A DNA stretch of 64,000 nt from an uncultured Anaerolineae bacterium (GTDB lineage: Bacteria; Chloroflexota; Anaerolineae; Anaerolineales; Villigracilaceae): contig CAIJPN010000048.1 of the NCBI GenBank assembly GCA_903822545.1, forward strand, positions 1 through 64,000, in the 5' to 3' direction. The notes beneath the pieces are model-generated. The model had not been told where the DNA came from. It saw only the letters and a list, made by a program, of their open reading frames with translations, and searched no databases. Within the stretch, counting starts at the first letter, position 1, and every line of letters starts with the position of its first letter. Of the stretch, positions 5,886 through 33,617 are shown piece by piece. The translations under genes and the position numbers were made by a program.

Positions 5886-6163
5886 CTCACCTAGTATGGT
5901 CATTATCAATCGGATAAATTCAAATGTCAAATAATGTCCGTGACAGGTGAGTATCAAAAGAAAAGACTTTCATTTTTGATGTGTAAAAACTATTGCTTCC
6001 GATCGCGATGTGAGTATCTTGCTTTACTATGCTCCATGGCATTCGGGAGTATTTTTGTCAATCCCCCAGCCCCGCCACCGCCTGCAGATGATAGGGCCAA
6101 CTGCACTTCTGCATCGATCAGGGGTTGTATTGAACATTCCCAAACATATGACATAAATCATAC
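5886..6163. other. Divergent intergenic region
   Basis: The interval lies between the divergently transcribed histidine kinase and the GntR regulator. I see no gene in it. It must contain the promoter of the kinase operon on the minus strand, but no clear -35/-10 pair stands out. The right part becomes AT-rich, leading into the palindrome at 6172. Confidence 0.4.
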
Positions 6164-32078: not shown

Positions 32079-32792
32079 TTATACCCCAAACGGGTTGAAA
32101 TTGGTATCGCGATCGTAAAAATCTTCGTGTTCGGCGCGTTTCAGGAATCCAACGGCCAGGTAGGTGATCGGGGTCATCAGCGCTTCGATGGCGCATTTGA
32201 ACAGGTAGTTGGTCAACACCAGCGTAGTGAACAACGCCCAGGGGAAAACCCCAAAGGTACAAGCGATGATCACAAAGACCGTTGAGTCAACCAACTCCCC
32301 GACCAGGGTTGAGCCGATCGTGCGCATCCACAGCCAGCGTCCGGCGGTGAGCACTTTCAGCCTGGCCAAAACAAATGAGTTGGAAAATTCCCCGCTCCAG
32401 TAGCCTGCCAAAGATCCCAAAACAATGCCGCCACTGGCCATCCCGCCCAGGATGGCGGCGTAGGCCGCGTCCCCGGCGTAGCCCTGCCAGGTGGATTCAC
32501 CGGGAAGATGCTGTACCAGCCAGAAAGTGCCCGAAGCCAGTGCCAGGCAGAAAAAACCAGCCCAAATAACACGCCGCGAGCGCCTGAAGCCGTAGACTTC
32601 GGTCAGGATATCACCGAAAATGTAAGAAATGGGGAAAAGGATAGTGCCGCCGTCAAAAGCCATCGGGATGCCGAACAGGTTCAACCCCAGGTCAACGATT
32701 TTGGCTGACGAAGCCACATTGCTGACCACCAGCACGGTCACAAAAACGGCCATGATCAAATCGAAAAAACGATATTGCCTTTCAATATACAT
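32079..32792 (-). CDS. yhhQ: Queuosine precursor transporter (QPTR/YhhQ family)
   Basis: 237 residues with six to seven membrane helices. The family (Vut_1, PF02592) imports queuine or preQ0/preQ1 bases for tRNA modification. The motif pattern fits: VLVVSNVASSAKIVDLG, GTILFPISYIFGDILTEVYGFRRSRRVIW, NSFVLARLKVLTAGRWLWMRTIGSTLVGELVDSTVF (conserved as RTIGSTLVGELVDS) and LTNYLFKCAIEALMTPITY. ATG 32792 is chosen because an AGGAGC site lies 6-7 bp before it; a longer in-frame start at 32924 would swallow the structured leader. That leader (32801-32879) can sequester the ribosome site, suggesting control by a queuosine precursor. Confidence 0.92.
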   Translation of the reverse strand: MYIERQYRFFDLIMAVFVTVLVVSNVASSAKIVDLGLNLFGIPMAFDGGTILFPISYIFGDILTEVYGFRRSRRVIWAGFFCLALASGTFWLVQHLPGESTWQGYAGDAAYAAILGGMASGGIVLGSLAGYWSGEFSNSFVLARLKVLTAGRWLWMRTIGSTLVGELVDSTVFVIIACTFGVFPWALFTTLVLTNYLFKCAIEALMTPITYLAVGFLKRAEHEDFYDRDTNFNPFGV

Positions 32793-32800
32793 TTTTTGCT

Positions 32801-32879
32801 CCTGTGTTTTGGTTGTGTGCCACTGGCACAAGGCGGGAACTGCGACCGCCGCGGAGCGTATTTTTACCACAGGTGCCAG
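32801..32879 (-). promoter_or_regulatory. Pseudoknot-capable leader, candidate riboswitch
   Basis: On the minus strand CTGGCA (32879-32874) pairs with TGCCAG (32828-32823). Immediately after the 5' arm, CCTGTG (32873-32868) is the exact complement of CACAGG (32806-32801), which contains the ribosome-binding GG. An inner stem GGCGG/CCGCC (32850-32846 with 32836-32832) lies in the loop. This is an H-type pseudoknot that would hide the Shine-Dalgarno sequence, the same logic as preQ1 riboswitches. Confidence 0.5.
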
Positions 32880-32948
32880 GGCCTCGCAATAAAAAATAGT
32901 GTGGCGAATTACTCCTACCATCACCAGGGCAGCACTATAATCAGACTT

Positions 32949-33617
32949 ATGAGCGCATCATCCTTCCAGATTCGAAAGTGCCAGAACCCGGCCTGTGGAT
33001 TACGCTACCCATTGGTGGAATCGCATCCTTTTGGGGAACGCTGCCCACTTTGCCTGGGGCCAACGCTGGCAGTGCTCACACGTCCGCTCTCCCCGGAGCC
33101 GTTTTTGCCGTTAAATGGGCCGGCCCTGGCTGTTTCTCCAACTGGGGCAGGTGTCCAAAAACCTCGACTGGATGCGCTGCTGGATAACATTCGCTCAGCC
33201 TGGAATGTTGGCGCCATCTTTCGCACGGCAGATGGCCTGGGCGTGGAAAAACTATACCTGTGTGGTATCACACCTGGCCCCGAGAATGCCCAGGTGCGTA
33301 AAACTGCCCTGGGCGCGGAACAAACAATCGGGTGGGAAACTACGCGCGATGCGCTGTCAACTGCCAGGGCGTTAATCGACAGGGGCTACCAACTGATCGC
33401 GCTGGAGCAGGCCGACAGGGCGATTCCACTCGATGCGGTGAAACTTCCAGCCGAGAAAAATCTCCTGGTTGTTGGGAATGAAGTAACAGGTGTTGATCCG
33501 GCGCTGCTGGATCTGTGCCAGCAAATTGCCTATATCCCTATGTTTGGGCAAAAACGCTCGTTGAATGTGGAAGTGGCTTTTGGGATTGCGGCTAGTTCTC
33601 TAATTCGCCACGAATAG
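32949..33617 (+). CDS. SpoU/TrmH family RNA 2'-O-methyltransferase with N-terminal zinc ribbon
   Basis: 222 residues. Residues 9-38 form a four-Cys zinc ribbon (KCQNPACGLRYP ... GERCPLCLGPT). The SPOUT core follows: LDNIRSAWNVGAIFRTADGLGVEKLYLCGITP (motif 1: NVGAIFRTAD), LLVVGNEVTGVDPALLDLC (motif 2) and IPMFGQKRSLNVEVAFGIAASSLI (motif 3), giving the deep-knot S-adenosylmethionine site. It methylates a ribose in rRNA or tRNA; target unknown. ATG 32949 has no ribosome site, and TATAAT (32936-32941) ends 7 bp before it, so the mRNA may be leaderless. Its 3' end overlaps the convergent DUF4190 gene by 18 bp. Confidence 0.88.
   Translation: MSASSFQIRKCQNPACGLRYPLVESHPFGERCPLCLGPTLAVLTRPLSPEPFLPLNGPALAVSPTGAGVQKPRLDALLDNIRSAWNVGAIFRTADGLGVEKLYLCGITPGPENAQVRKTALGAEQTIGWETTRDALSTARALIDRGYQLIALEQADRAIPLDAVKLPAEKNLLVVGNEVTGVDPALLDLCQQIAYIPMFGQKRSLNVEVAFGIAASSLIRHE

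Follow-up and report, generated by a model that had tools for sequence, protein, structure and literature searches.

A probable preQ1-I riboswitch with an inserted hairpin in the leader of a queuosine precursor transporter gene

Does the leader of a queuosine precursor transporter gene fold so that it can hide its own ribosome-binding site, and if so, by which stems? The gene in question lies on the minus strand (32079..32792) of a 64,000-nucleotide stretch of DNA, here called the window, which was analysed as a whole. It encodes a yhhQ-type protein of 237 aa, whose expected role as a queuosine precursor transporter was borne out by a TIGR00697 score of 108.7 bits (cut-off 50.95) and a match to Pfam Vut_1 (PF02592). 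Its ATG is at 32792, preceded at a distance of 6 nt by the Shine-Dalgarno (SD) sequence AGGAG (32803-32799, minus strand), and a divergent gene starts at 32949. The original prediction had proposed that two stems, CTGGCA/TGCCAG and CCTGTG/CACAGG, form a pseudoknot over the SD, and that this might be a preQ1-class or related riboswitch outside the known consensus. All four strands are present exactly as quoted on the minus strand (CTGGCA, 32879-32874; CCTGTG, 32873-32868; TGCCAG, 32828-32823; CACAGG, 32806-32801), and CTGGCA can be extended to CTGGCAC, with GTGCCAG (32829-32823) as its partner. CACAGG is indeed complementary to CCTGTG and covers the AGG of AGGAG. The genome itself carries a Tgt with a profile score over the cut-off and no QueF-II, the form of QueF that was searched for, over the cut-off (the best match is a GTP cyclohydrolase I), which fits salvage of an imported precursor. 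A transporter match, sometimes weak or fragmentary, was found in 75 of 100 genomes of the same family, and 65 transporter leaders were read, the window's own included.

As in homologous leaders, the window has a core (32850-32832) and an A-rich tail with the SD (32813-32799), here with a 16-nt insert in between, so that on the minus strand the layout reads GGCGG-UCGCAGUUC-CCGCC-UU-(GUGCCAGUGGCACACA)-ACCAAAACACAGGAG. Stem P1 consists of GGCGG (32846..32850) and CCGCC (32832..32836); its pair probability is 0.89-0.96, and partition function calculations predict that it forms whether or not further 5′ sequence is present. The loop UCGCAGUUC (32837..32845), which is identical in loci L099-L103 and L105, would provide L1, the 5′ strand of P2 and a C, C32837, directly before the P1 3′ strand. 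In the L3 tail ACCAAAACAC (32804..32813; ACCAAAACA in the plain relative L002) the motif CAAAACA is nearly invariant among relatives, and the tail as a whole, ACCAAAACACAGGAG, is conserved in kind, although the 16-nt hairpin splits it from P1. Two pairs can be proposed for P2, both by analogy: G32840-C32806 would correspond to G11-C30 of the Thermoanaerobacter tengcongensis (Tte) aptamer, and C32842-G32802, the latter base within the SD, is a candidate pair modelled on Tte. The preQ1 review PMC11625349 describes preQ1-I aptamers as made up of P1, a loop whose specifier C precedes the 3′ strand of P1, an L3 rich in A, and a tail in which the SD is the 3′ strand of P2; by this description C32837 is expected to be the preQ1 specifier. 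Two of the features by which preQ1-I is recognised are seen in the window: a short P1 hairpin (GGCGG/CCGCC) whose 3′ strand immediately follows a C (C32837), and the position before a queuosine synthesis or transport gene (TIGR00697). Judged by its sequence, the element is most probably a preQ1-I aptamer and so a variant within a class already known.

The best explanation, to which we assign a probability of roughly 0.88, is that the leader holds a preQ1-I riboswitch which controls translation of the transporter and in which a hairpin has been inserted between P1 and L3. When preQ1 is plentiful, it would bind C32837 between P1 and P2, and the ligand-bound loop would pair with the tail through the two P2 pairs proposed above. 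The first bases of AGGAG would thereby be buried and the ribosome kept off, and translation of the importer would fall. When preQ1 is scarce, the SD would be free and the importer made.

The element goes uncalled by Rfam. Across the whole window no family attained its gathering score, and at E values up to 10 the region 32600-33100 gave no match to RF00522, preQ1-II (RF01054) or preQ1-III (RF02680), the single hit being a weak snoRNA match. Relatives free of the insert fail too: RF00522 was over its cut-off in none of the 100 family genomes (55 candidates scored per genome) and in one of 14 control genomes, and no Rfam family was over cut-off in ten chosen loci. With E up to 1, RF00522 matched in 24 of the 100 family genomes; the centres of 30 loci were read, not every gene being checked. 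One of them, L067, which is the same site as L104, reached 28.1 of the required 39 bits and is a preQ1-I before queF. The others that were read looked like chance, and relaxed-threshold matches to Rfam as a whole were discarded as unrelated families only. Matching RF00522 at its gathering score is a criterion of detection, not an attribute of the RNA itself.

The core together with the tail is present in five of the 65 transporter leaders, namely the window, L002, L003, L005 and L012, the other 60 having no core beside the transporter. The four relatives have a plain version, GGCGG-UCGCAGUUC-CCGCC-UUAUCAAAACAAGGAG or near variants of it, right before the start codon. In L003 and L005 the aptamer starts 6 and 11 nt, respectively, past the stop codon with which a preceding reading frame ends, which favours translational control. 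In genomes G004, G041 and G051 (L100, L101 and L103) the aptamer is found before queF instead, and in L061-L065 a queF-like sequence appears by eye to end just before the transporter gene. A covariance model, R1, was built from five relatives with the window excluded (L002, L003, L005, L012 and L067, the last found by RF00522 below its cut-off). Where the preQ1-I, -II and -III models of Rfam suggested for such a search gave nothing, R1 matched the window at 32850-32830 with 26.3 bits (E 2.1e-4), the match ending at model position 21, where the insert starts. Since the first four relatives were picked by eye for a core in common with the window, R1 is not blind to it. The window core is the sole R1 match in its own genome at E up to 1; scores above 45 bits were obtained in 10 of the 100 genomes from the family, half of which are model sources, and scores above 30 bits in 28 of 396 genomes of the class, none of which is a model source. 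A larger model, R3, based on 27 distinct relatives, gave the window core 26.2 bits (E 1.5e-4 in its own genome, where one weaker match has E 0.037). Full-length R3 matches scoring more than 40 bits, many of them model sources, came from 10 of the 152 genomes of the family and 25 of the 396 of the class. R1 and R3 matches below about 30 bits were followed up in small part, and among six stretches fetched L309 alone looked real. A pattern for GGCAG-type aptamers matched in 51 of 396 genomes; 14 matches were judged real by eye and the rest chance, and a reversed control pattern also matches many genomes.

In total 37 loci were listed, and after L156 had been dropped as noise the alignment A3 comprised 27 distinct sequences among 36 rows. 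By eye, a transporter or QueF start lies right downstream in 29 of the 37 rows, the exceptions being L131, L145 and L151 (mis-centred), L133, L136, L138 and L143 (where the script chose another frame) and L156. All ten downstream proteins that were picked, seven behind single or tandem core matches and three behind a form with a hairpin in L2, belong to the queuosine pathway by curated cut-offs (five TIGR00697, four QueF-II and one QueC). All 135 P1 cells in the alignment of 27 rows are paired, in part because pairing helped to choose the rows. Three P1 pairs are invariant, and the outer pair is GC in 23 rows, AU in two, UA in one and GU in one, with double changes in three of the 27 distinct rows. 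None of 500 shuffles reached the covariation score of P1, and 111 of 500 had as many pairs with both bases changed. Directly ahead of the 3′ strand of P1, 30 of the 36 relatives have C, whereas the base is G in five (L132, L133, L136, L143 and L151) and U in one (L097, the same site as L012). From the sequences, either P1 is one pair shorter at these non-C loci, or their ligand or function may be different.

The 16-nt insert GUGCCAGUGGCACACA (32814..32829) sets the window apart from its plain relatives, none of the ten matches above 40 bits in 152 family genomes having it. It gives rise to a perfect hairpin of 6 bp with a 3-nt loop, UGUGCC-AGU-GGCACA (32830-32816; -7.9 kcal/mol), with a probability of 0.73-0.93 in a transcript starting at 32853 and of 0.12-0.16 in one starting at 32885. 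It is not a genomic repeat, the only other match in the genome having three mismatches. All contigs of 84,980 species genomes, from which the window's own may have been left out, were scanned with one pattern, the single core spelling UCGCAG with at least 13 nt before CAAAACA. This returned 36 stretches with a lengthened L3 against about 59 expected by chance in our own estimate; seven had five or six P1 pairs, and all 36 were judged by eye to be chance, none having an SD and a start codon in the next 25 nt. The window is thus the sole insert-bearing case found of its core type, and the insert is without covariation support of its own; it may have arisen recently, may lack a function or may result from misassembly. 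From such rarity one could argue that the locus is a degenerate, non-functional preQ1-I relic, its switch broken by the insert, and the absence of a convincing second case in either the 152 family genomes or the species-wide scan is in line with this. However, the specifier C, the loop, CAAAACA and the SD have all been kept, and the insert is no random sequence but a perfect 6-bp hairpin. Two other preQ1-I-like aptamers outside the family, the upstream members of the tandems L281 (G459) and L280 (G486), also carry a hairpin at this position of L3; L281 allows other pairings as well. We therefore regard a relic as unlikely. Most likely the insert is not itself the switch but an addition that is tolerated or serves for tuning. 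Located at the point where L3 departs from the base of P1, the hairpin can protrude or stack there and need not disturb the ligand pocket.

How the insert folds, and whether the stems of the original prediction can form at all, depends on where transcription starts. By eye, TGGTAAAAAT (32860..32869, minus strand) resembles an extended -10 box, with TTGCGA (32889-32884) as a weak -35 box 17 nt upstream; the same 10-mer also occurs in L104, 11 nt before P1, and TGATAAAAT lies 16-18 nt before P1 in L100, L101 and L103. The divergent gene at 32949 makes it probable that the promoter is within the gap. With TGGTAAAAAT as the promoter, transcription would begin near 32853 and neither of the two stems could form. 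A strict promoter scan of 32700-33100 gave no promoter; it did return a single terminator-like site, which falls within the aptamer on the plus strand (0.5 expected). A five-of-six test for a -10 box was positive in 5 of 29 leaders compared with 63 of 1800 random stretches, the window being without one. As the strict scans do not confirm TGGTAAAAAT, the promoter stays one that we infer. The transcript may start near 32853, in which case CTGGCA and CCTGTG (32868..32879, minus strand), possibly part of the promoter spacer, would lie upstream of it.

In a longer RNA, stem 1 (CTGGCA/TGCCAG) forms alongside P1 at the cost of the insert hairpin. It could accordingly be argued that GUGCCAG has two alternative partners, the local GGCAC and the upstream CUGGCAC, and that the choice between them, with P1 present in both states and the upstream partner winning in longer RNA, adds a second layer of switching. 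This would, however, require a start site upstream of 32879, with the divergent gene starting as near as 32949 and the strict scan yielding no promoter, and it is without comparative support, so that we consider it highly improbable.

The two stems on their own constitute weak evidence, as an exact H-type pseudoknot of 6+6 bp over the SD arose in 79 of 2000 dinucleotide shuffles (with the upstream leader shuffled and the SD tail fixed) and the 106-nt leader is not unusually stable compared with shuffled sequences (z -0.40). In a transcript long enough for both, a pseudoknot-free partition function gave stem 1 a probability of 0.83-0.84 and stem 2 (CCTGTG/CACAGG) one of 0.10. Neither stem has both its strands in any of the 36 relatives with an aptamer core or in any of the other 64 transporter leaders. 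The covariation of CCTGTG with CACAGG that had been anticipated in homologues was accordingly not found: no core-bearing relative has both strands, and there is nothing to covary. A comparable double stem covering the SD, with other letters, occurs in the leaders of two of the 36. Thus a novel pseudoknot of these two stems hiding the SD, despite its exact complements and a stable first stem (-11.1 kcal/mol as a duplex) favoured in long transcripts, is very unlikely, given its absence from relatives, its frequency in shuffles, its improbable second stem, which would be incompatible with the putative conserved P2, and 5′ strands that are possibly untranscribed, to judge from the TGGTAAAAAT box common to L104. 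What survives of the original prediction is the kind of element, a probable preQ1-class pseudoknot that involves the SD and is missed by Rfam; the stems are replaced by P1 GGCGG/CCGCC, and the element is a class I variant and not a new class. Of the strands named, TGCCAG is part of the inserted hairpin, and CACAGG would supply the P2 3′ strand of the preQ1-I fold.

Several other layouts of preQ1-I-like aptamers were observed in the relatives. Tandem aptamers precede the transporter in L139, L140, L141, L142, L146, L153 and L155 (alignment A4) as well as in L195-L202, in the layout GCCGG-loop-CCGGC...CUGC directly abutting a second P1 (GGCGG; AGCGG in L153). P2 of the first aptamer is GCAG/CUGC, or CCGA/UCGG in L153, and the three double changes all come from the L153 row. 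With a tandem model, scores above 90 bits were seen in one family for 8 of its 52 genomes, six of the eight being model sources; L153 belongs to another family. A hairpin within L2, following the P2 5′ strand GCAG and preceding the specifier, is present in L270-L279, L280 and L309. In L270-L279 it has the form GCCGG-URGCAG-(hairpin)-AC-CCGGC-L3-CUGC before queF, the transporter or queC, with double changes in three of four counted pairs over nine distinct rows (L270 is misaligned there), and no Rfam match at E up to 0.5. By eye, a short hairpin such as GGCAGCAAUGCC abuts the 5′ side of P1 in several members of one further family (L132-L136, L143-L145, L148, L149 and L151). L126 contains, near its high-coordinate end (G071, C306, about 6072-6095), a second, partial core copy, AGCGGUCGAAGUUCCCGCUU, which is without the usual tail and lies some 1.7 kb upstream of the one at queF. 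On balance we favour, with some reserve, the view that the bacterial class of the window uses an elaborated preQ1-I family uncalled by Rfam, with L3 hairpins (window, L280, L281), L2 hairpins (L270-L279, L280, L309) and abutting tandems before the transporter (8 of 52 genomes of one family, and L153).

The preQ1-I aptamers are textbook minimal riboswitches, built as a pseudoknot of roughly 35 nt. The class is known, but neither its lineage-specific form nor the hairpin in L3 has a precedent in the literature searched. No link of preQ1 riboswitches to Chloroflexota, Chloroflexi or Anaerolineae was found there, including passages of PMC3766115 and PMC2258182. The preQ1 review PMC11625349 contains no word beginning with “insert”. 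In a 2022 review of tandem riboswitches (PMC9481103), which cites McCown 2014 for the diversity of preQ1 classes, Table 3 has preQ1-I among the classes not found in tandem. The relatives point to a lineage-wide preQ1-I group below the cut-off of the standard model, some of whose members have inserted hairpins or are arranged in tandem. If this is true, the smallest known riboswitch fold would be a scaffold that tolerates add-on domains and doubling, which perhaps sharpens the response. Confirmation would provide natural designs for how so small a pseudoknot takes up extra domains, and would mean that queuosine salvage is regulated in this known manner in genomes without RF00522 calls as well.

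Among known systems, the window resembles the type II preQ1-I aptamer of Tte in its 5-bp P1, a loop opening with UCGCAG, the specifier C and the A-rich L3, and, by analogy, in translational control with SD nucleotides as the 3′ strand of P2. Unlike in Tte, the P1 3′ strand is preceded by UC instead of AC, the loop is one base shorter than the Tte loop, L3 carries the hairpin insert and RF00522 does not match. The UC before the P1 3′ strand is shared with preQ1-I type I, in which, according to PMC11625349, the P1 5′ strand is followed by UU, in contrast to UC in the window. The preQ1-II and preQ1-III riboswitches have HLout folds that are roughly double the class I size or more, and their Rfam models do not match the window; like the window, they are described in PMC11625349 as pseudoknots with an additional hairpin upstream of queuosine precursor transporters.
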